A stretch of 64,000 bases of DNA, taken from Theocolax elegans (lineage: Eukaryota; Arthropoda; Insecta; Hymenoptera; Cerocephalidae). This document shows, in pieces, positions 4,359-58,313 of this stretch. Below the pieces are notes generated by a model, which was not told the DNA's origin, ran no database searches, and was given only the letters and a program-made list of their open reading frames with translations. The DNA is taken from NCBI GenBank assembly GCA_026168455.1, contig CM047426.1:73621986-73685985 (forward strand). Direction: 5' to 3'. Made by a program: the position numbers and the translations under genes. Every line of letters begins with the position of its first letter. The stretch's first letter is position 1.

Positions 4359-4370
4359 TATGTGCACAAC

Positions 4371-4402
4371 GTTTCGTCTGCTAGGTTTGCAGACCTCTTC
4401 AG
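4371..4402 (-). ncRNA. hammerhead ribozyme core, inverted copy
   Basis: On the minus strand CTGAAGA is followed by the pairing hexamers GTCTGC/GCAGAC (stem II) and then GAAAC. These are the conserved hammerhead core boxes in the right order and spacing. PLE pseudo-LTRs are known to carry minimal hammerheads. Stems I and III are not clearly paired in this single copy, so activity may need a dimer. Confidence 0.65.
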
Positions 4403-4622
4403 GTGCTGAATTTATTGGACAAAATTATAAATATTTATATAGAAATTTTACATTACTTGTGAATTAAAAATTAAATTTTACCTTGATAATGAATATAATA
4501 TTACAGCCCAAGTGAGCTTCGTCGAATAACATTTGATACGAAATCAACGAGTATTTATACAAAAACAAAGTAGGTGTGTGTTTACAAACTATATACGTCA
4601 TAGTTTGTGTACATTAGTCTCT

Positions 4623-5255
4623 TTAAAATATATTCATAACATTTCTGTATTGACGGTTTAAATGTTGAGTATCTTCCATTCTGTTAATTGTCGAATTATA
4701 ATGATTGATGTGTAACATTTCCGAAATGAGTCTTTTTTTATAGCAAGATTCTTTATCTATTATTTTTGTATCTTCCCAGTTAAAATTATGATTTACGTTA
4801 TTTAAAATGTGTGCAGTAACAACGGCTTCTTGATTTTTATTGTTCTGATGTTCTTTTATTCGATTTTTTAGGCAGCGTTTTGTTTCTCCAATATAAATAG
4901 CCGGGCATTTAATACAAGATAACTTGTAAACTACCCCTGTCTCCTCCCATTTTGATGTTTTATCTTTGCCTAATTTTATAATTGTATCAAGTTTGTGATT
5001 AATCAATGGAATAGTATTAATATTATATTTTTTTAGCATTCGGGAACATTTATTGAAAAACTCTTTATTGTAAGGTAGTGATATCGTACATATTGGGATT
5101 TTTTTATCTATTTTAACATTGTTTTTAATTGTAATATTGCGTTTTCTTTTATTTATTGCTGTATTTATAAATTCAATAGGATAATCATTGCTTTTTAGTA
5201 TTTCTGTAATAATATTTAGATTTTCTTTATGAAACTGTTTTTGTGACAATATCAT
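4623..5255 (-). pseudogene. PLE endonuclease part, inverted 5'-truncated copy
   Basis: An open frame of 210 codons on the minus strand matches the C-terminal third of the PLE protein: a linker, then a GIY-YIG nuclease domain with GVVY and YIG motifs, a CxxC pair just before YIG and a downstream EM/HINH region. It lacks the RT, so it is a fragment. Its reading frame is uninterrupted, whereas the direct copy at 7690 has lost one A in an A-run, so this copy records the ancestral frame at that place. Confidence 0.8.
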
Positions 5256-5333
5256 TGCCCTATCTACTAAATTATAAATAATATTACGTTTCTGTTGTAT
5301 TGTGTGATTAGAATTAAAATTTAATAATATCTT

Positions 5334-5760
5334 GCTACAAAAAAAAGACTCATTTCGGAAATGTTACACATCAATCATTATAATTCGACAATTAACAGAA
5401 TGGAAGATACTCAACATTTAAACCGTCAATACAGAAATGTTATGAATATATTTTAAAGAGACTAATGTACACAAACTATGACGTATATAGTTTGTAAACA
5501 CACACCTACTTTGTTTTTGTATAAATACTCGTTGATTTCGTATCAAATGTTATTCGACGAAGCTCACTTGGGCTGTAATATTATATTCATTATCAAGGTA
5601 AAATTTAATTTTTAATTCACAAGTAATGTAAAATTTCTATATAAATATTTATAATTTTGTCCAATAAATTCAGCACCTGAAGAGGTCTGCAAACCTAGCA
5701 GACGAAACGTTGTGCACATACATAAATAAATTGGATTTATTTATTATTGACCCTTTACAA
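5334..5760 (+). repeat. PLE direct 3' fragment (pseudo-LTR)
   Basis: This piece repeats 8167-8613 in the same orientation: the last codons of the endonuclease, the 3' untranslated region, a hammerhead core and the terminal repeat. It fuses to the inverted copy at about 5333. It provides the upstream, promoter-side repeat for the RT ORF that follows. Confidence 0.8.
5677..5708 (+). ncRNA. hammerhead ribozyme core, upstream direct copy
   Basis: CTGAAGA at 5677-5683, stem II halves GTCTGC 5685-5690 and GCAGAC 5698-5703, and GAAAC 5704-5708. Position and sequence are identical to the downstream copy at 8513-8544. In PLEs such motifs lie in the pseudo-LTR and are thought to process the transcript. 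Confidence 0.7.
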
Positions 5761-5782
5761 TCGACTATTTACTAATTCAACA

Positions 5783-8292
5783 ATGGAGGGTGAAAATTAC
5801 AAATTAAACTACGGTCTTCGATTGAATACGGACCAGCCTCAAAGGAGAGGTACATCATTCTTTAACTACATCACTTCTGAATTTGGACTCAAAATAACTA
5901 AACTCCTCAAAACATGGACATTTCTACGACATCAACTATCTGAAGTTAACTCCAGACGTACTTTTCTACTCCAATGCAGAATCAACGATGTATTTCCAAA
6001 TCATATCAAAAGCATCGGCAGACGACAAAACATTTCCTTTTATAGTGAGTCTTGTAAATCAACACATAATTTACGGAGTAATATATATAAAAATCGTCTT
6101 CTAAAATTAGAAATTAATGATATTCATATTCATTTAAATTATTTGTATAAATCTTTAAACAAGTTAAAAATTAAAATTACTAACACAAATTTACCTTTGA
6201 TTATTCTTGATAATTTCTTTTTACTAACTGAGAAAAGAACACAAAAAATTTTTGATAATATTACTAAAATACATAACAATAAATTACATAATTTAATTAA
6301 ATATTGCAGTAATAACAGCACAAAAAACCAATGGATAAAAAACTTATCATCTAGTACAATTCCTGAAAATGTAATAAAGGTAGCATCTCTCGGCTCAAAA
6401 TTTAATTGCATTTCAAAATTTACTAATTATGATATTCTAACAACGATTAAAAATGTTGAATATTCCTTAGATAAAATTGAAACTAATACAGAAACTAAAA
6501 ATGAAATTAGGGATATCATTGTAAATAACATAAAATCGGTAAGAAAAAAGTCTCCACACATAACATATCATGAACGAGAATTTAAAAACAATCTGAGTGA
6601 AACTAAATCTTTCTTAAAAGAAAATCCTAACATATTTTTTACACATGCTGACAAAGGCAACTTAACAGTATGTTTAAATAAAACTGAATATATAGAAAAA
6701 ATGAACACCTTATTATTAGACAATAATACATATATGATGATAAAAAAGAATCCGTTAAAAAAACTACAGTCAGATGTTTATTCTATATTAAAAGACCTTA
6801 ATGATAATAAATTTTTAAAAAAAGAATACCATAAAAATGAATTAACCCAAACTAATACAACATTAGCGAAAGCATATGGATTACCAAAAATACACAAAGA
6901 TAATTTTCCACTCAGACCAATAATTTCGACAATAAACAGTCCTACACACTATTTAGCAAAAATAATTTATAACGATCTAAAACAAGCAATACCAGTTCCA
7001 AAATCGCACATAAATAATAGTTTTGATTTAAAAGAAAAGCTTGAAAATATATATATACCAACCGGTTATGTTTTGATATCATTAGACGTTAGTTCTTTGT
7101 TTACAAACATCCCAAGTCATGAGGTTCTCAATAGTTTAGATAAACGCTTTATTCATATTCAAAATAAATGTAAAATCCCCTTCCATAATATCCGCAAAAG
7201 TATAGAATTTTTATTTAATAATGTTTATTTTAGTTTCAATAATGTCATTTACAAACAAATATTCGGATCTCCAATGGGATCGCCTATATCACCATTATTT
7301 GCAGATTTAGTAATGGATGATCTTGAGACCCACTGTTTAAAAGAATTAAAAAGTAAACACAATTGCAAACCAATTTTTTATTATAGATATGTAGACGACA
7401 CAATTTTATGCGTGGAAAAAAGTCATGTAAACACAGTTCTCAATATCTTTAACAATTACAATAAACATCTCAAATTTACATATGAAATAGAAAATAATAA
7501 TTGTATAAATTTTCTGGATCTCACATTAATCAAAGAAAACAATAGTATTATTACAAATTGGTATAGAAAACCAACTAATTCTAACCGGTTATTAAATTTT
7601 AATTCTAATCACACAATACAACAGAAACGTAATATTATTTATAATTTAGTAGATAGGGCAATGATATTGTCACAAAAACAGTTTCATAAAGAAATCTAAA
7701 TATTATTACAGAAATACTAAAAAGCAATGATTATCCTATTGAATTTATAAATACAGCAATAAATAAAAGAAAACGCAATATTACAATTAAAAACAATGTT
7801 AAAATAGATAAAAAAATCCCAATATGTACGATATCACTACCTTACAATAAAGAGTTTTTCAATAAATGTTCCCGAATGCTAAAAAAATATAATATTAATA
7901 CTATTCCATTGATTAATCACAAACTTGATACAATTATAAAATTAGGCAAAGATAAAACATCAAAATGGGAGGAGACAGGGGTAGTTTACAAGTTATCTTG
8001 TATTAAATGCCCGGCTATTTATATTGGAGAAACAAAACGCTGCCTAAAAAATCGAATAAAAGAACATCAGAACAATAAAAATCAAGAAGCCGTTGTTACT
8101 GCACACATTTTAAATAACGTAAATCATAATTTTAACTGGGAAGATACAAAAATAATAGATAAAGAATCTTGCTATAAAAAAAGACTCATTTCGGAAATGT
8201 TACACATCAATCATTATAATTCGACAATTAACAGAATGGAAGATACTCAACATTTAAACCGTCAATACAGAAATGTTATGAATATATTTTAA
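5783..8292 (+). pseudogene. Penelope-like reverse transcriptase with GIY-YIG endonuclease
   Basis: The likely start is the ATG at 5783, just after the pseudo-LTR. The RT domain shows PLE hallmarks: GLPKIHK near 6885, SLDVSSLFTNIP near 7082, GSPMGSPISPLFADL near 7266, and the catalytic YVDD near 7387. The frame ends at 7699 because one A is missing compared with the inverted copy at 5255. After the shift the endonuclease continues (7876-8292) with GVVY and YIG motifs, a CxxC pair and the RLISEM region. The protein would be about 835 residues, normal for the family. With the frameshift, RT and endonuclease are separated, so this copy is probably inactive. Confidence 0.85.
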
Positions 8293-8512
8293 AGAGACTA
8301 ATGTACACAAACTATGACGTATATAGTTTGTAAACACACACCTACTTTGTTTTTGTATAAATACTCGTTGATTTCGTATCAAATGTTATTCGACGAAGCT
8401 CACTTGGGCTGTAATATTATATTCATTATCAAGGTAAAATTTAATTTTTAATTCACAAGTAATGTAAAATTTCTATATAAATATTTATAATTTTGTCCAA
8501 TAAATTCAGCAC

Positions 8513-8544
8513 CTGAAGAGGTCTGCAAACCTAGCAGACGAAAC
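8513..8544 (+). ncRNA. hammerhead ribozyme core, downstream copy
   Basis: CTGAAGA 8513-8519, GTCTGC 8521-8526, GCAGAC 8534-8539 and GAAAC 8540-8544, the same arrangement as at 5677. It lies in the 3' pseudo-LTR, about 220 bp after the endonuclease stop codon. Confidence 0.7.
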
Positions 8545-8613
8545 GTTGTGCACATACATAAATAAATTGGATTTATTTATTATTGACCCTTTACAATCGA
8601 CTATTTACTAATT

Positions 8614-8784
8614 TATCTAATTTGTATCAGCTATTAATAAATAAAGTTCGTTCGTTTAGTTATTCGTATTCGGTCGTATGTTGTTAATTATTAATCATGC
8701 CAAGATTTCCTATTTCCAACCTCCTCACGAGATATAGTCTTTAACATGCTTATTGACTAATATAATTATTAATTTACTAAATAA

Positions 8785-8831
<47 letters not shown>

Positions 8832-8843
8832 AAATACCGTTAC
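8614..8843 (+). repeat. gypsy 5' LTR, second part (R/U5)
   Basis: The sequence resumes after the PLE and runs to TTACA, five bases before the primer-binding site. It holds AATAAATAAA (about 8636-8645), a likely polyadenylation signal, and a TA microsatellite at about 8789-8827. No intact copy of this part exists at the 3' LTR for comparison. Confidence 0.6.
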
Positions 8844-8847
8844 AAAA

Positions 8848-8865
8848 TGGCGCCCAACGTGGGGC
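8848..8865 (+). other. primer-binding site, tRNA-Lys type
   Basis: TGGCGCCCAACGTGGGGC is the primer site complementary to the 3' end of tRNA-Lys(CUU), known from several retroelements. It directly follows the LTR end and precedes gag by about 175 bp, which fixes the LTR boundary. Confidence 0.85.
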
Positions 8866-9039
8866 ATGGGAAATGGAATCTGTTGGCTTCCGGAGAGGAT
8901 ACGTCGTGTTCGTGGTCGTGATCGCGTCGTCGCTCGGCAATAAAATAGCGATGCTAGCTGAAGGTGAATAAAAGAAAATTGTTCGACGTAAATAACTAGT
9001 GGTGTTCAGTTCGGCGCGGATTGCGAAGACGATTTTAAA

Positions 9040-11349
9040 ATGGCACCGATGTTGCGAGGAGATAACGGGAAAAAGGGCGTAGATTCGCTATCCTATTATT
9101 GCTCGCGCATGACGGAGTTATTAAAAAAGAATCGGTCGATACGGAAATTCTGGGAGAAAATATGTTCTTTGGACGAGAATGGAGTCCTGGACAGAATTCG
9201 CGAATTTGGACTCAGCGATATCGGGACAATCGCGCAATTGAAAGAAAGAATTGTCAGATTCGAGTCGCGTACGTATTCAGCCAAACTCGATGTTCCGTGG
9301 GATAAAGGATGGGACGTTCTCGGTACAGGACTTCCTATGGGAATCTACGAAGAAGATTTGATTTTTGATCCGTTAGTGATTATCGGCGTTGAAGAAGGCG
9401 CGGTAGCCTCGGGGAAAAACGTCGTGACTCACGAAGATTCGGGGGAGGCCGACGAGTCGTCCGGTATAGACGACGAATTGTCCGAGTTGTCCCTGTCGAT
9501 AAATACGCGGAACGAGTTAGAGTTGGAAGGGAATATGGCGACAACCGGTACGCGGGCAAAAACGCGGGAAAGTCGCAAGGAACTATCGGGAAGTCAGAAT
9601 TTTCGTGACAGTTTTAAGTCAAGGGAAGCTAGATATTCGCTGCCGAATGATTTAGGGTCGCGATCCGATAATAATTTGCAGATGATGGAGCAGATCGCGA
9701 AATTAACCGAAAGAGTTATGGAACTAGGAAATACGATAGCTGCCATGGGGTACGCGATCGGTTACTCGAAAGAGAACGCGAACGCACTGAAGACGGGAAT
9801 GTCGGGAGTTGATTCGCGTGTTACGCCGTGTAAAGGTTCTTCACGTCGACTAAGTTCGAAGACAGCCGGCAAGGAAAACTCGAAAAGCGTACGAATCAAT
9901 GAGGATCATCGCGATTCGAGAGATGAGGTGTTAGGCTTCCCGGAGGTAAATACGGGAAAACCGAGTACACGGGATGTCGGGACGATGACTTCCTCGAGCG
10001 ACGAAGTCACAAATGATATTAGTGAATTACGGGTGACTAAGAAGAAGAAAACGAAAAGTCGTCGTGACGCGCGTTCGGAAACGGAGCAACAGGTTTTGCC
10101 ATATAAAGGACATACCGAGCGGAGAGATTCGCACCGAGCCACGCGCTCGACGGCGCCCAGTCTCACACCCAGAGCGCGATATTCCAGCTCGAGCGACTCA
10201 GAGCTCGAGTCGAATGCGCAGCACGGGGTGCGGGACGAAGGGACTCGTCTAGCAGCGATCGAGATGCGCAACCGCTTGATTAAGTCACTACAAACGTGGC
10301 ACTTATCCTACACAGGAGACACCGATAAAGGGGGCGCAGATGAATTTTTACGTCGATTGAATGTTTGGCGGAAGTCCGGGGAAGTAACGGACGCGGATTT
10401 ATTACGTGCGTTGCCAGCAATATTGATGGAATCGGCGGGTAGATGGTTCGAGGCGGTCGGTAAAAGTATTAAGTCGTGGAAACAATTTACTCAGGCGTTT
10501 CATTATCGGTTTATGAAGCGTCTGGATTATAACGATGTGTTAGAAGAATTATACAAACGTAAACAAGGGGACGGCGAGTCGATATCGAATTTTATCGCGT
10601 GCTTTAAAATAGTCGTGAATAAATTCAAAAACCCGCCTACGGAGGAAGTATTACTGCAGATATTAATACGGAACATGAAGCGAGACTATCGGATGTTCGT
10701 GGCAATTCGGCGGGCTCGTAACGTGGCGGAGGTCGAGAAGTACGGACATGAATTCGAAAGACTGATCGAGATCGATGGTATTAGTGGCCCGAACGGTACC
10801 GGTCGTATCGAAGGGACGGCTTGGATGGGCGCACAAAAGAATAAGAAGTCAAGAAACGTCGCGATAGTCGAGTTAGTGGACGATGTCGAGACGTGCGCTG
10901 TAGATTCTGTTAAGGGGATAACGAAACGTCGTAGTGACCGCGGTAATAAGGTCTATAAAGCGATTGAAATAGCGAGTGCTCAAAAGACGGACACGGTTAA
11001 AAACGATAGAACCAGTTACGAGTCGGTCACGGCGCGAGTGGGATCGTCAAAACCTCAGTACAGCAGCACGCCGATTAAACCGATCGAGACACCGGCTGCA
11101 AATGCATCGGACGGAATTCGCTGTTATGAATGCAAGAGCACCGGGCATTTCGCTCGCGATTGTCCCCAACGGGTATGTAGATACTGTAAGAAACCGGGAC
11201 ACCGATTGATAGAGTGTTTAAATAGACCGCGTGTGTCAGTAGGAGACCCCAACGTAAAAATGTGTCTAGGATGTAAGCGCCCGGATCGTGACATTAAGAC
11301 TTGTCCGGATTGTGAGGCTATACGTCGAGCCTTGTCGGGAAACGATTAG
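9040..11349 (+). CDS. gag: gypsy Gag polyprotein
   Basis: The ORF encodes 769 residues and starts at an ATG in good context (AAAATGG). The N-terminal two-thirds is charged and serine-rich. A retrotransposon-gag capsid domain lies around residues 410-570 (RWFEAVGKSIKSWKQF, then LIRNMKRDYRMF). The C-terminus has two CCHC zinc knuckles (CYECKSTGHFARDC and CRYCKKPGHRLIEC) and a third incomplete cysteine cluster. Gag assembles the particle and packages the RNA. The frame is intact. It ends six bases after a slippery heptamer that would give Gag-Pol by -1 frameshifting. Confidence 0.9.
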   Translation: MAPMLRGDNGKKGVDSLSYYCSRMTELLKKNRSIRKFWEKICSLDENGVLDRIREFGLSDIGTIAQLKERIVRFESRTYSAKLDVPWDKGWDVLGTGLPMGIYEEDLIFDPLVIIGVEEGAVASGKNVVTHEDSGEADESSGIDDELSELSLSINTRNELELEGNMATTGTRAKTRESRKELSGSQNFRDSFKSREARYSLPNDLGSRSDNNLQMMEQIAKLTERVMELGNTIAAMGYAIGYSKENANALKTGMSGVDSRVTPCKGSSRRLSSKTAGKENSKSVRINEDHRDSRDEVLGFPEVNTGKPSTRDVGTMTSSSDEVTNDISELRVTKKKKTKSRRDARSETEQQVLPYKGHTERRDSHRATRSTAPSLTPRARYSSSSDSELESNAQHGVRDEGTRLAAIEMRNRLIKSLQTWHLSYTGDTDKGGADEFLRRLNVWRKSGEVTDADLLRALPAILMESAGRWFEAVGKSIKSWKQFTQAFHYRFMKRLDYNDVLEELYKRKQGDGESISNFIACFKIVVNKFKNPPTEEVLLQILIRNMKRDYRMFVAIRRARNVAEVEKYGHEFERLIEIDGISGPNGTGRIEGTAWMGAQKNKKSRNVAIVELVDDVETCAVDSVKGITKRRSDRGNKVYKAIEIASAQKTDTVKNDRTSYESVTARVGSSKPQYSSTPIKPIETPAANASDGIRCYECKSTGHFARDCPQRVCRYCKKPGHRLIECLNRPRVSVGDPNVKMCLGCKRPDRDIKTCPDCEAIRRALSGND

Positions 11350-11371
11350 AGAGGGATGTAGACGGGTCTAC
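11337..11371 (+). promoter_or_regulatory. candidate -1 ribosomal frameshift site between gag and pol
   Basis: The heptamer G GGA AAC (11337-11343) is in the correct phase of the gag frame, two codons before the TAG stop. A -1 slip enters a frame that stays open to 11582 and is coding-like. A small stem-loop (GTAGA, loop CGGG, TCTAC, 11358-11371) follows 14 bases later and could act as the stimulator. Confidence 0.65.
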
Positions 11372-13732
11372 TGCATCTCGGTTAATTGATCAAGATCCAC
11401 GTAGTTCACTTAATTCGTTGAACGGTAGAAACGGTCAAAAAAAGGTTAGATTCGTGGAGGGTAACGGGATTGGAGGCACCGGTATAGAGGTTCGAGACGA
11501 TAATATATCAGCTCGCGCTGCACAAACACAGGTGACTCGACGGTTAGAGACGATAACCTATCAGCTCGCATTGCACAGATAAGTGCAGAAGTTGGTAGCG
11601 ATAGGTTGTCAGCTCGCCAAGGGGTTACCGGAGAATTACCAGATAATAATCGAATAGTAGTTAGCGAGGTAGAGGTTCATCGCACCGAATCGGGAGAGCC
11701 TCAAGAAGGGCTTTTAAGAAACGATAACGAATTAATTAAAGCCGCGGTGGACGAGTTATTAGAGGATTTAGGTAAAACGAAATCGCGATCGGTGCTACGG
11801 CCTGACGCCACGGAATTCGCGTCGCGGATAGGTAATTCAGTGGTTTTAAGCTCTGGTTCGGTGATAGACGCCGGCGTTTTTCCTTATGGGGAAGGTAGAT
11901 CTGCCTCAATGGCAGATAAAAATCTTGAGTCAATCGATATCGCGAGTGATTTGGAGATCGCGGATACAGTCGTCGACGAGAGACAGTATTTACAGATAGA
12001 AATAGAAGGGATAGTGTACCGTGCATTAGTAGACCCGGGGGCGATGGTATCGTTAATAGGGTCAAAGGTGGCGGAACGTTTTAAAAAACAGTTAGAACGG
12101 TCCTCGGCGCAAATCCGATCAGTAACGGGGCAATTATCGTCAGTGAGAGGAACGTTGAAATTAAACCTCGATGTGTTAGGTGTTAGTGAAATAATAATAG
12201 CCCGGGCTACCGATGTAACTAGTCATGACGTGGTCTTAGGAATCGATTTTTGTAAAGAATTCGCAATCGAGGCAAACTATCGAGATGGACTTTGGCGTTG
12301 TCGTGACGGGCCTTGGGTTGAATTTTTTAAGGATGGGTGTTCGAGTAACGAGAGTAAAATTTACGCGGAGTGCGCGGGTTTAAGTGAACTAAATGACGAT
12401 CAAAAAGAACAAGTCCAGCGGTTAATGTCAAAGTTATTACCGGAACGACCACGGGGTTTCGGTTATACTAATTTAATAGAACACGTAATCGACGTTCAAG
12501 GGGCGGAACCCGTAAAACATAAACCGCGCCGATTATCGCCTAAGATGTGGGAAGTCGCGAACGATGAGGTAAAGAAGATGTTAGAAAACGACATTATCGA
12601 GAAATCGTGGAGTGAGTGGCGTAGTGCGCCGGTAATCGTGAAAAAGCGCGATGGATCGTATCGGTTCTGTGTCGATGATCGCGACTTAAACAAGGTAACA
12701 AAGAAGGACGCTTATCCTAGTCAGAATATGGACAGTATATTGGATAAATTACGGAAAGCTCGGTTTATTACGAAGGTCGATCTTAAACAAGCGTACTGCC
12801 AGGTGAAAATGGAGGTGTCAGGTCGTCCGTTGACAGCGTTCGTAGTGCCCGGGTCCGGTCTTTGGCAGTTTAAACGAATGCCGTTCGGGTCAACGAATGC
12901 GCCGCAAACTTTTCAAAGATTAGTGGATAGTTTATTCGGACCGGAGGTCGAGCCGTATGTGTTCGCGTATCTGGAAGATGTGATCGTCGTGACAGAAAGC
13001 TTTCAGGATCATTTAAAATGGTTAGAATTTGTTATTAGGCGGTTATCGGAAAAATGTGAATTTTGCTGCTCCCAAGTGTCGTATTTGGGTTACTTGTTAG
13101 ATAAAGACGGATTACGTCCCGATTCGGAGCGAGTGGCGCCGGTACTTAATTATCCACCACCGCGAAATGTTAAAGAGCTCCGACGGTTTTTAGGAATGGT
13201 AGGATGGTACTCGCGATTTATCGAGCGCGATTCTGAGGTCAAAATTCCGTTACTTAAACTATTACAAAAGAAATATCCGTGGGTCTGGGGTAACGAACAA
13301 CAGGATGCCTTTGAGTCGCTTAAACTAGCATTGACGCGTGCACCCGTCTTGTCGAGACCGGATTTTAGAAAGCCGTTTAGTATACAGTGTGATGCAAGTG
13401 ATTATGCGATTGGGGCGGTATTAACACAAGAGGATGACGACGGGGAGCATCCTATCGTGTACATAAGTCGTGTGTTAACTCCCGCGGAGCGTAACTATAC
13501 TACCATGGAAAAGGAATGTTTAGCGGTAAAATGGGCGATTCTTAAGCTTAGACCATATATCGAGGGGTATCACTTTACGGTCATTACAGATCATAGCGCG
13601 CTGAGGTGGTTGCATAATTTGAAAGAACCGTCCGGTCGTTTAATGCGTTGGGTACTTGAGTTACAACAATGGGATTACACGATATTGCATAGGAAAGACG
13701 CAATGCACCATGTGCCTGACGCGTTGTCATGA
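11343..13732 (+). pseudogene. pol: gypsy Pol: protease, reverse transcriptase, RNase H
   Basis: Pol is read in the -1 frame to 11582, then one frame lower from about 11504 on, so a frame break lies between. This stretch contains an imperfect repeat of about 15 residues (RDDNISAR, RDDNLSAR, SDRLSARQ). The protease site reads DPG instead of the usual DSG/DTG. The RT shows KVDLKQAY and QFKRMPFG, but its catalytic box is YLED instead of YLDD. Compared with the family, a few residues seem missing between the box and KCEF. RNase H follows (CDASDYAIGAVL, YTTMEKECLAVKWA, TDHSALRWL). A TGA at 13730 interrupts the frame before integrase. The enzyme is predicted inactive. Confidence 0.85.
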
Positions 13733-15003
13733 GGGTTCGAGGAAGTCGCGTCGTTTGAGAAGATAGATGACGAGTGGTACTTACGACAGATGGAAAACGT
13801 GCGGGAGCGTCCCAATAAATTTCCGCAGTGGAGGTTAGAAAACGATATGCTTTATCGGTTCCGTAAAGATGAGTTAATTGATCCGGTAGAGTATCCGGAG
13901 ATTGGCTGACGTTTGGTCGTGCCTAAGGAATATCGGGATCGGGTTATCACTGACGCTCATTGCGAGGCCTCGTCGGGACATTTAGGTATCGAAAAGACGT
14001 ATGACCGAGTTGCGAGGGAGTATTATTGGCCGGGAATGTGGCACGATGTACATTCGTTTATCGAGAAGTGTGATCTTTGTCAGCGGTATAAAATTTCACA
14101 GCAACGCGCCGTTGGGCTGTTGGGTAATCGTAACATTGAGCGTCCATGGGCGGTAGTGGCTGCGGATATGATGGAATTCCCGCCGAGTAAGAGTCGTTGT
14201 CGTTATCTACTGGTGTTCCAGGATTTGTTCACGAAGTGGGTCGAGTTAAAACCTTTACGCGTGGCGGACGGTAAATCGGTTGCACGGGCCTTCGAGGAAT
14301 TAATTTTATTCCGCTGGGATACGCCGGACTATCTTCTTACGGATAATGGAAAAGAATTCGCGAATAAAACATTATTAGCCGTGTTAGAGGAGTATGGAGT
14401 AAAGCATATTACTTCACCCCCCTATCACCCGCAGGCTAATCTGGTCGAGCGTGCAAATCGAACGTTGAAAACAATGATCGCGATGTTTGCCCGTGCGGAT
14501 CATCAGACATGGGACCAGCACGTTAATGAATTTAGACACGCAGTTAATACCGCTACGCAGGCGTCTACTAGGGTTTCGCCGGCTTATTTAAATTATGGAC
14601 GGCATCCTAGACCGGATAAAGTTTACGTCGTGACGTTGAGCCTAACGAAATCAAGCTTCGCCAGTCTCCGGAACTCTGGGCAGATAGAATGCGCCGATTG
14701 GATGCGCTTCGCGAGCTAGTATTGAAAAACATCGGCGATGCGCAGGTTAGGCAAGCCAGGTACTATAATCGAAATAAACGGGTAGAGTCTTATAAAGAAA
14801 AGGACTTAGTCCTTCGGCAGAACAACGCGTTATCGAGTGGGCCAAATAAGTTCTCCGCGAAGCTCGCCGAGAAGCATAAGGGACCGTACGACATAGAAAA
14901 GGTATTGGGTCCGACGACGTATTTAGTAAAAACGCATGACAAGCGAGAGAACCCAAAGGTGCACATATTCCAACTTAGGCGATACAAAACGCCCAGAGAA
15001 TAA
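13733..15003 (+). pseudogene. gypsy integrase with C-terminal domain
   Basis: The frame continues from RNase H but is broken by TGA codons at 13730 and 13907 and by a shift near 14634. The HHCC zinc region is visible (H...GHLGIEKTY, CDLCQ). The catalytic triad looks intact: D in VAADMMEF, D in LLTDNGKEF, E in NLVERANRTLK. After the shift the C-terminal part (14635-15003) has the DLVL...GPYDIEKVLG pattern of the integrase C-terminal SH3-like domain. Three breaks make this copy a pseudogene. Confidence 0.85.
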
Positions 15004-47741: not shown

Positions 47742-48173
47742 TAGTATTTATTAAGACGTGCGGAAACAAAATAATAATTATTAAAACTTATACAATATTT
47801 ACAATATATATTTATGCTAGAAATATTATTTTTGTTGTGAATTATAGCTTACAAAAATTATTATTTCTTTTTAAATCGCGCGGTTATGTAATGGGACAAA
47901 AAAATTGTACTTGACCAGTCATTAACCACTGATTAGTTACCGAGTAAGCGCAAAGTAAACGTGTTGTTTTTATTAATTATATTGACATTTTGAAGCATCA
48001 ACTTCAAAATAATGTAAGTATAATAATTTTCAACATTTAATGTCGTTATTAACATAAGTAATTGTACTGATATATAAAAATATATTACAAAACATGTACA
48101 TTAATATTTTAACCTTAAATCTGTAAATTTATTTTCAATAATGTGCGAACTTTTTATTACATATAATTGGATA
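47742..48173. other. pogo element left non-coding region
   Basis: AT-rich; probably the promoter side of the transposase. No motif beyond the terminal repeat is recognised. Confidence 0.4.
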
Positions 48174-49110
48174 ATGGGCAAAGAAGAAAAGAAGAGAGTT
48201 AGAATAAATAAACAAAACAATTCTTATAGTCATAATGATGTTGAGAAAGCATTGGATGCTATTAAAAATGGTATGTTAACAAGAAAAGCTGCAGCTCTTT
48301 ACAAAGTGCCTAGAAGTATATTGTACGCCAAATGTAACAAAGTAATTCCTGTACAAGCTAAAAAGGGTCCTAGTACAGTTTTAACTACACGGAAGAAGAA
48401 ATGTTAGTTTCATGGATATTTGAATGCTGTGAAAAAGGTTTTCCCATTACTAAATGTCAACTGCTTGAGTCCGTTCACAAATTAATATTAGAATTAGGAA
48501 GAAATACACCTTTTACAAATGACAAACCTGGAAGACACTGGTACGAGGCTTTTTGTAAAAGACATCCTGAAATATCTGAAAGGCTATGTCAAAATTTGAG
48601 TATGAGTCGAGCATCAGCTACTGAGACTGTATTACAAAAATGGCACAGTGATGTTAAAGACTACATACAGAAGAAAAATTTAGTTGACATTGATTCATCG
48701 AGATTCTTTAATTTGGATGAAAGTGCCTTTTTTTAATTCGCAAAGGAGAAAGAGTTTTAGCAAGAAGAGGATCTACTGTTGTATACAAAGTTGTTCACGG
48801 TGATGATAAAGAATCATTAACTGTATTGTTTACAGTAAGTGCAAATGGTGTGCCGTTACCGCCCTTAATATTATATTGGTATGAGAGGATGCCTGGTAGT
48901 ATAATGAATAATTTACCTTCTAAATGGCTTGTCGGAAACACAGACAAAGACTGGATGACAGCTGATTGTTTTTATGATTACATAACAACACAATTTTATC
49001 CTTGGTTAGTTGAACACCAAATTGAATTTCCAATTATTCTATATATGGATGGTCATGTATCGCATATGACATTATCACTCTCTAAATTTTGTAAAGAAAA
49101 GGATATCTAG
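48174..49110 (+). pseudogene. pogo/Tigger-like transposase
   Basis: From the ATG at 48174: a Psq-type helix-turn-helix (ALDAIKNGMLTRKAAALYKV), a frame shift near 48390, then a CENP-B-type DNA-binding domain (PGRHWYEAFCKRHPEIS). The DDE domain starts at NLDESAFF (first Asp), shifts in a T run near 48735, and continues to LYMDGHVSH (second Asp). It stops at 49110 before the third acidic residue. A C-terminal piece may be at 58565. Two shifts and truncation make it inactive. Confidence 0.75.
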
Positions 49111-49800
49111 TGGGTAGAAACAAAGTCTTTAACATTTTAATTTATTTTTTCACTAAAACAAGTAATAGTATAAAATATAATGCGAAGAAGTAAAAGAAAG
49201 TTACTCAAAACGCATTTAAATGAAAAGCAATCGGCAAAATGCACAAATAATAAAAAAAGCTTTGAATCAGGTTAATGTTATTTTAATTTGAAAAAAGTAA
49301 TGTTTAAACGAAGGATCTTCAAATGATGACTATTTGAATTTAGCTAGTGTAAAGAAAATTGCAAAATCTGATATTCTTTGTAAAAATAATTTCCATACTG
49401 AAGCAAGTACTTCAAAAGAGAAAGGAAAGCCACGAATCATATCGATTAAAAAGCTAAAAGTGCCCATAAATTTAAAAGCTATTAATTCTACTAAATTTGA
49501 ATTCGAAGTAAGATAAGCTTATTTTTTTATTGTGAAATTCGCAGAAAAAATATATTAAACGAAATATAGAACACTATGTACTTTACTAAGGGAGCAAAGT
49601 GGGCACTGTGTGTTACTGACGCCCGATTGAAGCCTACTTTACTCTCGTGGAGCATATATACAACTTTTAACGATATTGCGCTGCACTGCGCGGAAAATAA
49701 GTAAATATTTTTAGACATTCCGCGCGAGAAGACTTCTCGCACGATTAACAAAACATGCGTGCTCAAAATCGAGCTTCTCACACGTTGTAAGTATCAAAAA
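49111..49800. other. unassigned stretch between pogo gene and kinase element
   Basis: It includes a Lys-rich open run at 49334-49516 with no recognised domain and a mixed-composition part with GC dyads (CGCGCGAGAAGACTTCTCGC near 49720). Part may belong to yet another insertion. Confidence 0.35.
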
Positions 49801-50317
49801 TACGGAAGCGCCTAACCGCCATCTATCGCGCATACTGAGAGAGTCGATTTTAACGATTCGCAATCATCTTGCGAGTTGTGCGCTGCTTATACTTTTTTCA
49901 TTTTGGATTTCTACGGTTGCCAATTAATAAATTTGAAAAGAAAATATATAGTTTTTATATATTTTCGGCGAGTATGCAAAGGTAAATTCAATATTACTTT
50001 CTATAAAATTGTAAGTTTACATTATTGCTTAGTGCATATAAATGATAGATTTTAAGGTTATTTCAGTTTTTAATATTTATACAAATACAATTATTGTTAT
50101 GTTTAGATGGAAGTGCGAATACTGCATAATGGTAAAAATTTAATTTACCTATAAAAAGTAACACTTTAAGCATCAAGGCAATTCAAAAATATTTTCCATC
50201 TGCAACCGGTCTTACGTACCAAAAAGATAAGGACACTGTTGCTGTACCTTTCATCGATGATGAGTTGATGGAAATTATATCTTTTGACACTATCTACAGT
50301 GTTTACATTCCGGATGG
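49801..50317 (+). repeat. left terminal inverted repeat with upstream region and exon 1 of the kinase gene
   Basis: It matches 55662-56310 in inverted orientation, apart from an extra internal duplication in the right copy. It holds a 306-bp non-coding part with probable untranslated exons and introns (for example AAAGGTAAATT near 49980) and the ATG at 50107. It is presumably the promoter of the kinase gene. Confidence 0.75.
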
Positions 50318-53300
50318 TAAATATTTAAAATATATATTAGTGTATGTATATATTATTTAAATAAGAATATGTTGATTTTAAAAATCTCTCTTAACGCTCT
50401 TCTGCTTGCTTTTGATGTTATGGGTGCATTTTTTCAAAATTTTTATTATTAAATGATTAAAATCTTATACCGAATCATTATGGAAAAAAGTAATTATTAA
50501 TTATTAATTCATTTGAAATTGATTATTAAAAAATCACTTTGCAAGCTTCTTGTATATCATTTAAACATCAAGTATGAATATTTTGAAATTTTTAGATTCA
50601 TAATCGTTCAACATTTTATGGATAAATATTATGATAAGTAATATAATTACTTTTTTGTAAGGTACATCATCTACTAGCAGTGTTGGTGAGGCTAAAAAGA
50701 GACGATTGCAAGAGATGCTCGATAGTATTGGAATTAATAAAAAGATGTCGAAAAAATCAAAAGCAGAGGTATTTATAATCACATATATGTATTAAAAATA
50801 TTGATTTTGATATAGTGTACGTAAAATGACACTACACATTTTTCATATTCTTTAAGGGAATAAGCCAGGATTCAAATTAGAAAAAATAATGTATTACTAA
50901 TAATTAATAATTTATTATGTGATAAGCTAAAACATTTCCTAATTTTTTTATTAAATTGAATTATTATTAACTTTCATTAAAAATTTTTAGCTAATTTATT
51001 GATCAATTTATTTATTAATCAATTTGTGGCTCTCCGTACTATGATTTTTACCACAGTGTACTTGCCGCAGGATAATTCATCAACTTTTTCATCGAATAAG
51101 CTGAAATTTTAACAGTAACTGTTGAACGTCATTCTAATCCAGTTTAATGAAGCAGAATTACTAAAAGGACTCAAAATATTTATTCAAAAAATAAATTATC
51201 TGATTTTTACATAATTTTTTAATTTTTTGCAATAATTTTGCAAATTAATTTGTTTGATTGCAATATTTTTAAATTCTGTTCGATTCAAGTGGAGTAGAAT
51301 GATGTTTAATAGTTGTTGTTAACATTTAAGCCTATTCGTTGAAAAAGTTTCTGTGATATTCTACGGTGTAAGTGCATTATGGTAAAAGATCATAGTACGC
51401 GGAGCCATAAATTAATTAACACAGTTATGTGGTAAATAAATTAGAGTAGTAAATGTTTTAACTAGTTGTATAATAAATTATGAATTATTGATAATAAATT
51501 ATTCTTTATTTTAACCCAGGCTTGTCCCCTTAAATGCCATGCATGCATACTATGCAAAAAAATATTGTTCGATGCACATACGAAAGATATGATTTTCGAC
51601 TCGAGCAAGCACTACCTTCGCTTTGTTTGGACAAAAGGCTTGAACTGGTTTGAAAATCGACACTTTCCAATTTGTATCAAAAACTATAAATTTTATTTCT
51701 GGTTAATATTTTATCTAATTTTATTTGTATTTTTAATTAACAGGATGCTGCTAATTCACTTACGTTGTCATCAAAAAACAAATGCGAAAATGCTAAAAAC
51801 ATCAAAAGAGTTATTTATGTAATGTGGAAGCATAGAGAGTCAATTATTGATCCGTTTGTTCGGTACTCATCGTTATCGCCAAAAATTAAAATCGATTTAA
51901 ATTATAATCGGAATTATTCGTATGACGATTTAAAAGTTTTATTAACTGAAGCGTATGTTAATAAAAAAATTAAATATTTCTTTGGAAATTCAAATATTCA
52001 GCTTGGCTATGGAAAGGACTATATTTTATACGAGTTCCGCGATGAAGATAAACAACCTTGTTCGTTTTGGAAATTCATAGAAGAAAACGAAATTAGAGAT
52101 AATGGAAATCGTTTAAACATACTAATCTTAACAACGTTAATTGATAAGAGTAAGTCTTCCAAAGTAGCATTGACTTCAATCGAAAATTTAATTGGAGTAA
52201 ATAATAACAGCAGCACGCCAGTTTGTGGATATAGCAAAGATAGTAGATCCAACAACTATGAAGAAAAGAAAAGTTGTTCTGATAATGTTATCAGTTTAAC
52301 AAAGACGTCAATCAGCGAAAACGAATTAAGTCCACCTATTGCTGCGAATTCCAGTTCTTTGAGTGTGTCAAAACTACCAACTTGCTCTTCACTAATTCAA
52401 AATAAGAGAATCTCTTATAAAAAACTTGACAGTGATAAAATAGCAGCTACCAGCTCATCTGGTAACGGTGACGTTTCAGAATCTATTCCATCTCCCTCGT
52501 TTTCTAATATCACTGTTTTGAGAAAAAAAGTCAGTGAAAACTTAATAAAAGATGATAATGTATGCAAAGAAAATTTTAAAGTACCATCACTACCGCAAAA
52601 ATTATTGCATAAAGATAACGAATTACCTAATCTTCATTTACCTTACATTGATGAAAAGGACATTACATTTTCAAATACTATTTTAGGATCAGGTGGTCAA
52701 GCAACAGTAACAAAAGCAATATGGGCTGGAACAGTAGTTGCAGTTAAAACTTTAAAAAGTTTAAAAAATAAAAAACTAGTGTTGAGGGAGTTAATGTTAA
52801 TGGAAAAAATACGCCATGAGAATTTTATAAATATAATGGCTGTATGTTTATCGCCAACTAAACACCATATAATTATGGAATATTTTGATGGAAGATCATT
52901 GTATGATATGCTTTTTGATGAAGACTGCGAGTCAAATTATAGTCTGGATATTTCCAAAAAAAATTGTATCGGATTGCAAATATGTATTGCTATTAACTTT
53001 ATACATGCACAAAAAAATCCAATTATACATAGGGATATCAAACCCTGTAATATATTGCTAAATAAGATGTATTATGTCAAAGTCTGCGATTTAGGTTTAT
53101 CAAAATGTAAAGAAATGGATGATCATTTGAAAACATCTAGGGATGGGGTCATAAGAGGGACATTATTATATATGTCTCCAGAAATACTTTTATCACAAAA
53201 GCCACCAACAGAAAGTAGTGATGTTTGGTCTGTTGGATGTACTTTGACAGAATTGTATAATCAAAAATGTGTGTGGGACATAAATGGCTTTTTTGCATCG

Positions 53301-53486
53301 CAATCATTAAAAACTTTGTTAGAAAAAAAGTCTTTACCTAGTTTGGAAAAAGTTCCAACTTTCTTAAAAAATGCTATTAAACAATGTTTTTCATATGATC
53401 CACTAAAACGTGCCAACATGAAATTATTACTAGATACGTACAGACACGAAAAACAAATATTTAAAGACAAATTTTTTACTATTTAA
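50107..53486 (+). CDS. transposon-borne protein kinase (TKL/RIPK-like)
   Basis: Exons 50107-50317, 50662-50769 and 51744-53486 have good splice sites and matching phases. Exon 1 is the TIR-encoded module but seems to have lost one base near 50150 relative to the right TIR, so the start may differ. Exon 2 is basic (KKMSKKSK). Exon 3 encodes 580 residues: a domain like those in other transposon proteins (51800-52130), a Ser-rich linker, then the kinase. Key motifs are present: GSGGQATV glycine loop, VAVK lysine, the RELMLMEK helix glutamate, HRDIKPCN, DLG in place of DFG, and SPE. DLG is found in RIP-type kinases. The predicted role is Ser/Thr phosphorylation; the target is unknown. The kinase frame is intact. 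Confidence 0.75.
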
Positions 53487-53511
53487 AGTATATTATTTAC
53501 TTATTACGAGC

Positions 53512-53997
53512 GTGTCTCATTTTCGGATAACGTATCTTAACCAAATACTGGGATATGTTTTGTAGTATAAAGACATGAAGAAATCCAAATTTTGAAACTC
53601 TTTTGATTTATGAAAGTTGTAGGCCACTAAAGTAAATTTTGAAGAAAAATTACTTACACTTTTATCGCTTATAATTCGATAGCAAATAGAGATTACACTT
53701 AAACTTAAAACTATAAGAAAACTGAGATCAAGTAGATACGGTTTGAGCTTATTTTTTCTAAACCGCATCTACTTGATCTCAATTTTCTTATGGTTTTAAG
53801 TTTAATTGTGTATCTCAATTTGTTTTTGAATTATAAGCGTATAAAGTGAAAGTCATTTTTCTTCAAATTTGTTTTAGTGGCCTATAACTTTCATAAATCA
53901 GAGCATTAGAGTCTAAAAATATGGGTTTCTACATATTTTTGTATTATAAAACATATCCCAGAGTTTGGTTTAGAACCGTTACCCGAAGGTAAGACAC
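53512..53997. repeat. foldback palindrome between the convergent genes
   Basis: Arms 53512-53744 and 53760-53997 are imperfect reverse complements around a 15-base spacer; the inner arms read ATCAAGTAGATACGGTTT and AAACCGCATCTACTTGAT. It begins 25 bp after the kinase stop. It may be a MITE or a shared 3'-end/termination structure for the two convergent genes. Confidence 0.75.
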
Positions 53998-54396
53998 TCC
54001 ACGTTAAATGTAAATTAACGAATTATTGTAAGTTTAAAAGCTTATAAAGGTGATGTTAAGCAAACGCTTTAATTCTTTTAAATATATTTATTGTATGTTT
54101 AAGTTAAATCTATAAATTGGTTTTTATTAAAAAAAATCGTTAAATTACAACCAAAAAATAAAAATAAATAAACATACCTTTTTTAACGATTAAACTTGTG
54201 AGACTGTATAATTAAAAAAAATGCGTTCTTGTTGATAATAGTAAAACACTGTTATTATTGCAATGTTCAATATGTATTTTATGTGATATACATTAATTGT
54301 TACTTGACAAATAAAGTTTAAATACTTATAAAGAATTAAAATTTTATAGTTCATTTTATATTTACAAATTTATATACAATTTATACAAATAAATTA
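53998..54396. other. AT-rich 3' region of the transposase gene
   Basis: No ORF. AATAAA-type signals occur on the minus strand side near the stop codon. Confidence 0.45.
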
Positions 54397-55869
54397 TTAT
54401 TCATTTTCACACATTTTTAAAATTTCTGTGTATAATACAACGGCTTCTTCAGCTGTGCAAGGTTTTGCATCCAACTTTAATTCCTCTTGTACAAAAGATG
54501 CGAATTCCGGATTACACAAAATAGGCTCGTTTGTGAATCTTTTTAATAAAATATCGACGTCATTAGTGTCTATTAATTTTTTGCAGTCGTGTCCACCATA
54601 GTTTTTAGCAAGGTTATATTTTATGTTCGGTTTTCCTCCGAGAATTGCTCTACCATTTTGCTTGCGAATAAGGTGTTGATTCCATTCTCTTTTATAATTG
54701 GCTAAATCATGTTTAATGATGTCACCAAAACAATATCGCAATGTTTCAATATGCAAGGTATTGCTGAGGTTCAAAATTTCTTTGTCTTCCATACTTTTAA
54801 ATAAATCTATAAAAAAGCCACAAACATGTTTTCTTAGTTGGCACCAAAAGCTTTCTATACGTTGATTTGCTGTGCTTTTTCCAACGATAAAACTTCTTTC
54901 TCCTGCGTGGTCATCATTATGCGAATATCGTAAGCACTGTTGCAAATTTTCAATGTAAGAATTTTCTGTCCCTTTATCTGAACGCATAAGGGTAGGCACA
55001 TACTTCAATTTCTTTACTGCACTTAGAAAATAGAACGCTATTACCTCTGGGTCATTATTAGTATTTGCAACCTCTAGCCAAAGCAGTTTTTTTGAATATC
55101 CGTCTATACAGCCGTGAATTGCAAAACCAAACCTTTTAATTTTGTCGTAACCATCTACATGCCAGAGATAATTTGGACCAGGGACATTGTACATCCTTCT
55201 TTTAAGCCTTCGCAGTTTCCTCTGAGCAACTCCTTCATTATCTAATATTTGTAAAAGATTCATCACTGTTTTTTGCCGAACTCTAATGTTGTATTGATTT
55301 TGAAGTCGTTTCCATAAAAATCGGTATCCTAAGTTCTGACCACTATTTTCCAATTCGATATAAATAGCAGCAGTTATTTCTTCAATAGGGCTCTCTTCAA
55401 AATTTTTACGCTTCAAACCATTATCTCTAAGAATTCTTTCCAAAGTCCGCAAAGATATTTTAAGCCCATGCTTCGTTAGAAGTAAATCACAAATTTGTTT
55501 GTAACTATAATTTGCATTAAAATAACCAAATATTGTCGCATTGAGAGTATCGTTCGTTCCGGAATTTTCTTGTGAAGTATCTAAAACATTATAAGACAGA
55601 TTTAATACAATGAGTATAGTTATAAAGATTTTTCAAATTATTATACAAATTAGACATTCACCATCAGAAATGTAAACACTGTAGACAGAATCAAAAGAAA
55701 TCTCCATTAACTCATCATCAATGAAAGGTACAGCAATAATGTCTTTATCTTTTTGGTACGTAAGACCAGTCGCAGATGGAAAATATTTTTGAATTGCCTT
55801 GATACTCAAAGTGTTACTTTTTACAAGGAAAATTAAATTTTGACCATTGTAAAGTATACGCACTTCCAT
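54397..55869 (-). CDS. integrase-type (rve/DDE) transposase
   Basis: Exon 1 (55869-55662) starts in the right TIR; exon 2 (55580-54397) starts after GTTTTAG. The spliced frame is continuous, 463 residues. Exon 1 gives a small beta-rich domain (FPSATGLTYQKDKD, VPFIDDELME) shared with the kinase gene. Exon 2 has a helix-turn-helix region (SYKQICDLLLTKHGLKIS), then a catalytic core with LWHVDGYDK (Asp), LMRSDKGTEN (Asp) and NQRIESFW (Glu). The family is widespread as uncharacterised integrase-core proteins in animals and fungi; I cannot assign the superfamily name safely. It would bind the TIRs and catalyse transposition. No breaks are seen. Confidence 0.8.
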
Positions 55870-56310
55870 CTAAACATACAAATAATTGTATTTGTATAAA
55901 TATTAAAAACTGAAATAACCTTAAATACTATCACCTATATGCACTAAGCAATAATGTAAACTTACAATTTTATAGAAATTAATATTGAAATTTACCTTTG
56001 TGCACAATCGTCGTCAATAATCTGTCTTTTTTAAAAATTATTAATTGGCAACAGTAGAAAACGCCAAAATACAAAAAAATACAAAACGCTCAACTCGCAA
56101 GATGATTACGAAAGTAATATTGAATTTACCTTTGCATACTCGCCGAAAATATATAAAAACTATATATTTTCTTTTCAAATTTATTAATTGGCAACCGTAG
56201 AAATCCAAAATGAAAAAAGTATAAGCAGCGCACAACTCGCAAGATGATTGCGAATCGTTAAAATCGACTCTCTCAGTATGCGCGGTAGGTGGCGGTTAGG
56301 CGCTTCCGTA
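55662..56310 (-). repeat. right terminal inverted repeat with upstream region and exon 1 of the transposase gene
   Basis: Matches the left repeat at about 95% over the shared parts. It has one extra, diverged copy of an approximately 140-bp block (55976-56112 versus 56113-56250). It ends at the donor GGTGAATG. Confidence 0.75.
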
Positions 56311-56559
56311 CAAAAAATATCGTTTCGCTCGCGGACGTAAGCGTCACGCGAGATGAAAATCTACTTTCTCGTACAGGTTTCGCAGTATACTATTGTAGAT
56401 TTAAAAAATTTTTGTTTGCTCTAAATAAAGTTTATTTATTTTTATTAAATTTTATTTTTTCAACTAAATTTTTTGCACTCAATAAATTTTTTTCTGCGAA
56501 TAAATAAAGATTTAATAGGTACGTAAAAGTTATATTATTATTTTAGCAAAATAATTCAG

Positions 56560-58313
56560 AGGGGAAGTGTTTGTAAAGGTTTTGATACTGAAGCAATAGA
56601 GCAAAATAATCAAAATTTACAAATTATTAATGAATTAATAAATAATTTATCAGTAAAAAATACAAAAGATTCAAAATGTGATGAAATACCTATTATTAGT
56701 GAAATCACAGAAATTTCGCAAGCCAGTGAAAATTATTCCAGTACAGATGAAGAGAAGGGAAAAATCGATGACGATTATGTTCCTTCAAGTGAATCTGACT
56801 TAGTCTTGTGATTTAGACTATACTGAAGATGAAATAGATGAATTAGATGATGATTTTAGTAATAATGAAATTGACTCTGACGATGAACAATGTGAAACAG
56901 TTACATCTGCTATGGCTGAATGGACAAACATCACAAAAGGACGAGAACACGCTGTTACAGATTATAAAGTTTCTAAGGATTTGTCGAATGTATCCCCTGC
57001 TAGAATATATCAAAATTTAATTACAGAAAATACTTTACAATTAATCGTTTCTGAGACAAATAATTATGCCACTAAATTTATAGCAGAAACTACTCTTAAA
57101 AAAACCTCTAGAATAAAACACTGGAGAGATATCAATTTGGTCGAACTAAAACAGTTCCTTGGGATAGTTATTTTAATGGGACTTATAAATATGCCTTTAG
57201 TAAAGCACTACTGGAGGACAGATGGTTTTTATAGGAATGAATTAATAAAAAAAACTATGTCGATTTTTGTTAATATTAAAATTTTTGCATTTTTGTGACA
57301 ATTCTGATGTTGAATCAAAAACAGCTAGGCTTTATAAAATAAGGAAACTTGTAGATATGTTTGCATAAATAATAAATGCAAAAATTGTGAGCAGCTTTTA
57401 GAACCTGGAACAGAAGTGGTTATTGATGAAAGTATGATCCCTTGGCGAGGCAGATTAAATTTCAAACAATATATAAAAAATAAGAGGCACAAATATGGAG
57501 TAAAATTATTTAAGTTATGCACTATAGATGGTTACATACTTAGAATAATAATTTATACTGGAGCTGCGACAGTGAATAAAAGTTCAGACAAACATGTGGG
57601 TCACGCACATCAAGTCGTTTTAGAATTAATGAATGATTATTTATATTCAGAAAGAATATTATATTGCGATAATTTTTATAATAGTATACAACTTGCCGAA
57701 GATTTATTAAGTAAAAACACGTATGAAAAATTCTAGTAATGTACAAATTTATAAGTAGAAAGACAAGAGGGATGTATTAATGATTACCACAAGAAGCGAT
57801 TATGAATGTAATTTAACTGCAACAAATAAAAAAGGGCGAAACAATGAAATTATTCAGAAACCATCATGTGTACTGGATTATAATCGTGCAAAAAAAGGAG
57901 TTGATGTTTCAGATCAACTATCCTCTTATTACAGTAGTCTTCGCAAAGGAGTAAAATGGTATAGAAAAGTTGCAATAGAAATCATCACAGACACAGTAAT
58001 GGTCAATTCATTGTTAATTTATAAACAATTTAATGACAGTGCAATAACACTTTTGCAATTCCGAGAAAGTGCAGCCAGGGAATTAATAGACAATGATGAA
58101 GTGTTGGAAGAAAGAACGCCTAAACTTTATCGGCATAGGTTGGAAACTACAGAAATTCGTCGTCGATGTGTAAACTGCTATAAAGTATTAAAGGCCCTCG
58201 GATTACGTTCTACTAAAGCAACTAATAATGCTAAAAAAGTTTTCACAACTTGTAAAAACTGCGAATCATATTTTTGTTTAGAATGTTTTAATAAAACCCA
58301 TAAAACTTTATAA
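56560..58313 (+). pseudogene. piggyBac-type transposase, decayed
   Basis: An acidic N-terminus (56590-56900, one frame shift near 56810) leads to SRIKHWRDINLVELKQFLGI near 57106. The first Asp is in VIDESMIPWRGR (57416), the second in LYCDNFYNS (57662) and the third in KKGVDVSDQLSSYY (57891). The C-terminal cysteine-rich zinc finger (CVNC...CKNC...CLECFNKTH) ends at TAA 58313. At least three shifts or stops (near 56810, 57296, 57365 and 57735) make it inactive. TTAA target sites and end repeats were not found. Confidence 0.8.

Follow-up and report, generated by a model that had tools for sequence, protein, structure and literature searches.

Within a 64,000-nucleotide window of the Theocolax elegans genome (GenBank assembly GCA_026168455.1, contig CM047426.1, forward-strand positions 73,621,986 to 73,685,985; the window is this whole stretch, and positions below are counted along it), the segment 49801-56310 is a DNA transposon in which a protein kinase gene and a transposase gene face each other between inverted repeats at both ends. 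The overall explanation that we consider probable is an IS3EU lineage with a stable pair of genes, a DDE transposase and a tyrosine kinase-like (TKL-like) kinase, in which the kinase starts with an exon for a TDP-43_N-like domain and this exon has been passed to the transposase. Eleven divergent families in the host genome carry the kinase at the same place and in the same orientation, and we are confident that the kinase is a stable, selected part of the element lineage. The features of the window copy are as follows.

49795 to 49800, no strand: left target-site duplication CAAAAA, 6 bp (sequence reading).
49801 to 50339, no strand: left terminal inverted repeat, starting with TACGG and holding the upstream region and first exon (repeat alignments).
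50107 to 50316, plus strand: kinase first exon, TDP-43_N-like domain, with a GT donor at 50317 and an early frameshift in the window copy (sequence, alignment, profile).
50662 to 50768, plus strand: second kinase exon, basic and, by eye, resembling a nuclear localisation signal (predicted splice sites).
50851 to 51534, no strand: palindromic repeat resembling a miniature inverted-repeat transposable element (MITE), within intron 2, shared with copy L021 (repeat alignment).
51744 to 53486, plus strand: main kinase exon, 580 amino acids, open, with the kinase domain at residues 312-563 (open reading frame, Pfam, motifs).
53495 to 54015, no strand: MITE-like palindromic repeat between both genes, shared with copy L021 (repeat alignment).
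54397 to 55580, minus strand: transposase main exon, with a helix-turn-helix (HTH) domain, HTH_21, and the rva_4 DDE core, D142/D201/E242 of the 393-amino-acid piece, and no in-frame start upstream of the HTH (open reading frame, Pfam).
55639 to 56310, no strand: right terminal inverted repeat, ending in CCGTA (repeat alignments).
55662 to 55869, minus strand: transposase first exon, an intact copy of the kinase first exon, 208 nt from ATG to a phase-1 GT donor (alignment, splice phase).
56311 to 56316, no strand: right target-site duplication CAAAAA, 6 bp (sequence reading).

The two inverted repeats are 99% alike over the outermost 201 nt and 90, 89 and 79% alike in gap-free blocks further inward; with gaps allowed, identity is 84% over 490 columns. 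The right arm is longer by 135 nt, a partial tandem repeat of the element end. The upstream region and an exon, about 70 codons long and closing at a phase-1 GT donor, are common to both repeats. An earlier, sequence-only reading of this DNA had proposed a mobile element with the same first exon at both ends, and the two arms together with the CAAAAA duplication bear this out. It had also placed the end of the similarity exactly at the splice donor, but the similarity continues for about 22 nt beyond it.

IS3EU transposons are described as having TA..TA ends, usually 6-bp target duplications and an IS3/IS481-like DDE transposase (PMC10045372), and fungal IS3EU families as having TAYGG..CCRTA ends and 6-bp duplications (PMC12730594). 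We found TA..TA ends in the window element and in 11 other loci fetched from the host genome (given L numbers here), in the form TACGG..CCGTA in 11 of these 12 and with TCGTA as the right end in L022. Perfect 6-bp target duplications, read by eye and every one of different sequence, flank 12 of the 12 loci with both ends; in five of the 17 two-gene loci (L021, L027, L035, L038 and L039) the stretch read held no TA..TA end pair. Because the ends, the duplication length and the matches of the DDE domain fit these descriptions, as far as the portions of the two papers available to us go, the element is assigned to the IS3EU superfamily. One of the fetched loci, L028, has two right ends with the same flank (3227-9818), which suggests a local segmental duplication.

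The main kinase exon matches Pfam Pkinase at E 6.3e-46 and also PK_Tyr_Ser-Thr, with Pkinase_fungal below threshold, and a Pfam scan of the window kinase found no alpha-kinase domain. The glycine loop, VAVK, HRD, DLG and SPE motifs are intact, and the nearest solved structures among PDB chains are CTR1, then an EGFR entry and TAK1. We therefore describe the product as a TKL-like Ser/Thr kinase, an assignment by conventional motifs and nearest PDB chains rather than by a kinome tree. Ahead of the kinase domain lies a conserved region (about residues 10-160, window 51771-52223) common to many family members; neither the window copy nor any of the four relatives scanned gave a Pfam match above cut-off for it, and a low-confidence model suggests a mixed alpha/beta fold. 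Structure models of the first exon and of the kinase exon were poor (predicted local distance difference test scores of 53.5 and 37). When the whole kinase exon was searched against proteins, two sequences from ENA contigs, P0001 (93% covered) and P0002 (45% identity), were the only prominent ones among the best 120 of 975 matches, the remaining ones scoring far lower; a search with the N-terminal 180 residues returned no matches, and a kinase profile run against viral contigs gave 17 matches at 22-34% identity. The sequence-only reading had seen a complete kinase behind the left exon. The kinase motifs, the Pkinase match and the GT/AG sites and phases of the predicted splices agree with this, but the left exon itself carries a single-base frameshift, read by eye, with a stop after 15 codons, and the kinase of the window copy is therefore untranslatable from the left-exon ATG.

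On the other strand, the window transposase matches rva_4 at E 8.8e-44, HTH_21 at E 2.4e-9 and rve at 1.8e-4 in Pfam. The closest named transposases among the matches listed come from parasitoid wasps, and the named insect ones listed are from Leptopilina, Aphidius, Cotesia, Nasonia and Diachasma. By addition, the exons 55869-55662 and 55580-54397 give 463 residues and a stop, the length that the sequence-only reading had given, and the GT/AG sites and the donor and acceptor phases of this predicted splice are compatible. Since the window transposase lacks a start codon of its own, it would need the shared first exon.

The sequence-only reading had put forward recurrence in the genome as the test of whether the kinase moves with the element, and full-length relatives bearing the kinase do recur. 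We obtained at least 77 matches to the kinase (75 of 191 candidates were scored, so that counts are lower bounds) and at least 56 to the transposase; 51 of the 77 kinase matches, the weak ones having been dropped, and all 56 transposase matches were clustered into 32 kinase places and 37 transposase places. A kinase lies within 6 kb of 21 of the 37 transposase places, in opposite orientation in 21 of 21, where our own arithmetic gives a chance expectation of about 0.02 such neighbours. When only transposase places with 320 or more of the 393 residues covered are counted, the fraction is 16 of 17, and the exception (C4:69559935) contains at least seven stops. Sixteen of the 20 fetched loci hold both genes; L026, L029 (at a contig end), L036 and L040 hold the kinase only. 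Together with the window this gave 17 two-gene loci for comparison, in the eleven families mentioned above. The closest relative, L021, has 5.66 kb in common with the window element at 99.6% identity and a different right flank, and because both palindromic repeats lie in the part common to the two copies, they appear to have been carried along with the element. L042, on another chromosome, is a transposase fragment of the window family, 94% alike in protein and 97% in DNA.

Kinase and transposase have diverged in step. Their distances across the 11 families are correlated (Mantel r 0.82, reached by 0 of 20000 permutations) and their trees have 5 of 8 splits in common, and the kinase has therefore been inherited together with the transposase; to call it cargo, as the sequence-only reading did, is too weak. 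The catalytic Lys, the HxD Asp and the DxG Asp are kept, where alignable, in family members at about 35-45% identity (pieces are missing from the motif alignment in L034, L038, L039 and L040), with DLS in place of DLG in the L025 kinase, and the frame across the kinase domain is uninterrupted in 10 of 21 loci. In a codon model, the ratio of nonsynonymous to synonymous change (omega) between families is 0.035 for the kinase (10 sequences, including L026 from a kinase-only locus, 270 codons) and 0.037 for the transposase (10 sequences, 375 codons). Synonymous change is saturated at these distances and only aligned parts entered the comparison, so we read the values no further than as strong purifying selection of similar strength on both coding sequences.

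Recent copies behave differently. Among eight recent kinase pairs (synonymous divergence between 0 and 0.3) omega is 0.40-1.02, with 1.02 for L023/L024, 0.98 for L035/L040, 0.83 for L026/L034 and 0.40 for L028/L033, and among four recent transposase pairs it is 0.25-0.56 from few changes. Neutral decay of the kinase, which the sequence-only reading had said would undo its idea, is thus seen among recent pairs but not between families. Near-neutral decay of recent kinase copies is as expected of transposon copies, which degenerate once inserted; the kinase may do so slightly faster. These recent values, the broken first exon of the window copy and a close family with two copies only among the kinase matches are what would be expected had a single transposon captured a host kinase by chance, in the manner of a Pack-MULE, and carried it as a passive passenger. 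We consider this most improbable, given eleven divergent families with the kinase at the same place and orientation, congruent kinase and transposase trees and the low omega between families; recurrence and congruence led us to rule out recent host-gene capture.

The second feature of the lineage is the exon within the repeats. It appears to code for a small TDP-43_N-like domain, as judged by sequence profiles: Pfam TDP-43_N matches 7 of 9 first-exon translations at E 0.012 or better, two of the nine above the curated cut-off of 27.1 bits (L031 with 30.5 and L032 with 34.1). In a profile search of PDB sequences, seven TDP-43 chains followed at E 0.04-0.61 after two SRGAP2 chains at E 0.001, the latter aligning to the later part of the first-exon profile. 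The N-terminal domain of TDP-43 is known for head-to-tail self-association.

A profile grown from the window first exon and run on the 17 two-gene loci found the exon on the kinase side in 14 loci and ten of eleven families; the three loci in which the kinase side did not show it are L027, L039 and L021, the last having lost its left end. On the transposase side it was found in 8 of 17 loci and five of eleven families, with stubs of merely 20 residues in L027 and L028, and the same search did not find it in the other six families. Because the exon is commoner on the kinase side, the kinase end is the likelier source of the copy and the transposase end its recipient, and we think that copying probably took place this way; copying from transposase to kinase is disfavoured by the distribution over loci. 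The same counts make improbable the proposal of the sequence-only reading that the transposase promoter and exon had been duplicated to drive the kinase. In a tree of 16 short first-exon translations, both copies of one element pair up in all five elements placed (support 97 for L035, 99 for L033, 99 for L038 and 87 for L034; 95 for the clade of the window and L035), with no support value printed for the window pair and weak deeper branches. Such within-element pairing would result if the ends had repeatedly grown or been homogenised.

The exon may instead have been ancestral to both genes and lost from most transposases, homogenisation keeping the surviving pairs alike. That five families scattered over the tree have it on the transposase side is in line with this, as is a gene model of Leptopilina heterotoma (LOC122501804, 474 amino acids), which fuses the same domain N-terminally to the transposase (independent E-value 1.4e-13). 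The L. heterotoma domain groups with those of L022, L023 and L038 (98), and its transposase likewise (100); it is the only domain-bearing protein among the best 120 transposases listed, most others being single-frame predictions blind to an upstream exon. We nevertheless regard an ancestral exon as rather unlikely, the transposase side being without it in six of eleven families and the kinase side having it in ten of eleven.

The start codons bear on whether the transposase uses the exon at all. The transposases of the window and L021, L034 and L035 have no Met of their own in the open stretch before the HTH, and all have the exon in front; those of L022, L023/24, L025, L030/31, L032, L033/L027 and L038 have one directly before the HTH, and L028, L037 and L039 were left out because their start-codon status could not be judged. 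L038 and the family of L033 hold the exon in long repeats despite the Met of the transposase itself, the transposase-side exon of L035 has no Met in frame and that of L034, although its donor matches an AG|AT acceptor, is frameshifted, all of which would suit an unused by-product of long inverted repeats, with the transposase starting elsewhere. We consider this unlikely: in the window, L034 and L035 no in-frame Met precedes the HTH in the transposase exon, the phases of the window donor and acceptor are compatible, and the L. heterotoma gene model joins the domain to the transposase.

Under the explanation that we favour, with a stable kinase and transposase pair and a copied exon, the two genes would be read towards each other from opposite ends of the element. 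In some families the exon would have come to stand before the transposase as well, either because the inverted repeat grew inward across it or through copying of one end onto the other; in the window family the transposase would start via this shared first exon. As its likeliest function, the kinase would aid the transposition of its own element through phosphorylation of the transposase, or of host factors present at the element, and the common N-terminal domain, if it self-associates like that of TDP-43, could unite kinase and transposase where both have it. That the kinase acts on the transposase or on transposition is a possibility that we infer and hold tentatively. It may also target host silencing, DNA damage signalling or the cell cycle, with the effect that the element is repaired and inherited more often, which we likewise consider possible, if short of probable. 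Signalling kinases are its nearest solved structures, and in the fungal TET+ IS3EU elements, in the text available, the kinase adjoins a TET/JBP gene with a presumed role against silencing (PMC12730594), but in some families the N-terminal exon common to both genes suggests that kinase and transposase pair physically. More speculative, and in our view doubtful, is that end copying keeps the same self-associating domain on both proteins and matches each kinase to its own transposase, which would make it self-targeting, a kinase by which transposition is licensed or timed.

Several observations weigh against this explanation or parts of it. The splices of the gene models are predicted ones. TDP-43_N was matched in the Pfam scan neither by 2 of 9 first exons nor by the L. 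heterotoma protein, a two-sequence AlphaFold model of the first exon was too poor to use, and Foldseek with that model found nothing at E 0.001. Eleven of the 32 kinase places are without a nearby transposase match; some of these may be host kinases. L034 has lost the Asn of HRDxKxxN, and judging by the recent pairs described above, constraint on recent kinase copies looks weaker than on the transposase, from few changes. Copy L021 is without its left end, its kinase is interrupted by one stop and its right first exon by a frameshift, and in the 8 kb further upstream (L041) nothing matched the element. Among the window, L021 and L042 we found no copy of the window family that is complete and working, for which reason the functional claim rests on the wider lineage. 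As to the exon on the transposase side, its defects in L034 and L035 leave the window with the only intact exon-to-transposase model in the host genome, and as the transposases of at least seven families have a Met of their own, co-assembly via the exon is not a general need.

IS3EU itself is already known, as is an alpha-kinase in fungal TET+ IS3EU elements, to go by the available text of PMC12730594; apparently new are the kinase lineage of animal IS3EU and the first exon that the two repeats share. The main text of the IS3EU paper does not contain the word kinase and, in the portions seen, names no coding exon inside the repeats (PMC10045372). The fungal TET+ elements resemble ours in their ends, their 6-bp duplications and a kinase opposite to the transposase; as described in that text (PMC12730594), theirs is an alpha-kinase with a TET/JBP gene in between, whereas the window element has a conventional TKL-like kinase whose first exon is TDP-43_N-like, and between its genes nothing but palindromic repeats. 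Although it belongs to another kinase family, the fungal alpha-kinase hints independently that IS3EU elements profit from a kinase. Styx of Zymoseptoria is IS3EU-related and combines an IS3EU-type transposase with extra genes, two with GATA and CCHC motifs and one with DUF3577, the parts available describing no element kinase (PMC10853768). Maize MuDR, according to the text seen, also has two genes, the mudrA transposase and mudrB of unknown function, with promoters within the inverted repeats, so that its internal sequence may be convergently transcribed (PMC3276141). It belongs to another superfamily. We understand the MuDR repeats to have promoters in common rather than a coding exon attached to each of the genes. 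In the literature on IS3EU, judged for the most part from search listings, a single paper was found to state a kinase gene in such elements, and we found no report of a conventional kinase in an animal element, nor in the literature one of a coding exon in repeats serving both genes; Repbase entries were not searched in either case.

With a kinase under selection alongside the transposase, phosphorylation becomes a testable part of the control of eukaryotic cut-and-paste transposons, and the fungal alpha-kinase raises the question of whether the entire superfamily depends on kinases. If the kinase were indeed self-targeting, it would mean, taken with that alpha-kinase, that IS3EU transposition had recruited kinases at least twice. 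From the exon in the inverted repeats one sees, moreover, how an N-terminal domain can pass between genes when transposon ends grow or are copied.

The rest of the window contains further mobile sequences. To the left of the element, at 48105-49110, are decayed transposase pieces with HTH_psq and DDE_1, which we take to be pogo-like, and to its right, at 56804-58313, decayed pieces with DDE_Tnp_1_7, presumably of piggyBac type. At 5726-8292 a reverse transcriptase frame precedes a GIY-YIG frame, an arrangement that we assume to be that of a Penelope-like element, and 8992-14719 is a Ty3-type retroelement with frames for gag, protease, reverse transcriptase/RNase H and integrase. Finally, a frame at 33095-34651 matches the baculovirus F protein (E 1.9e-35), presumably as in the envelope genes of insect errantivirus-like elements.

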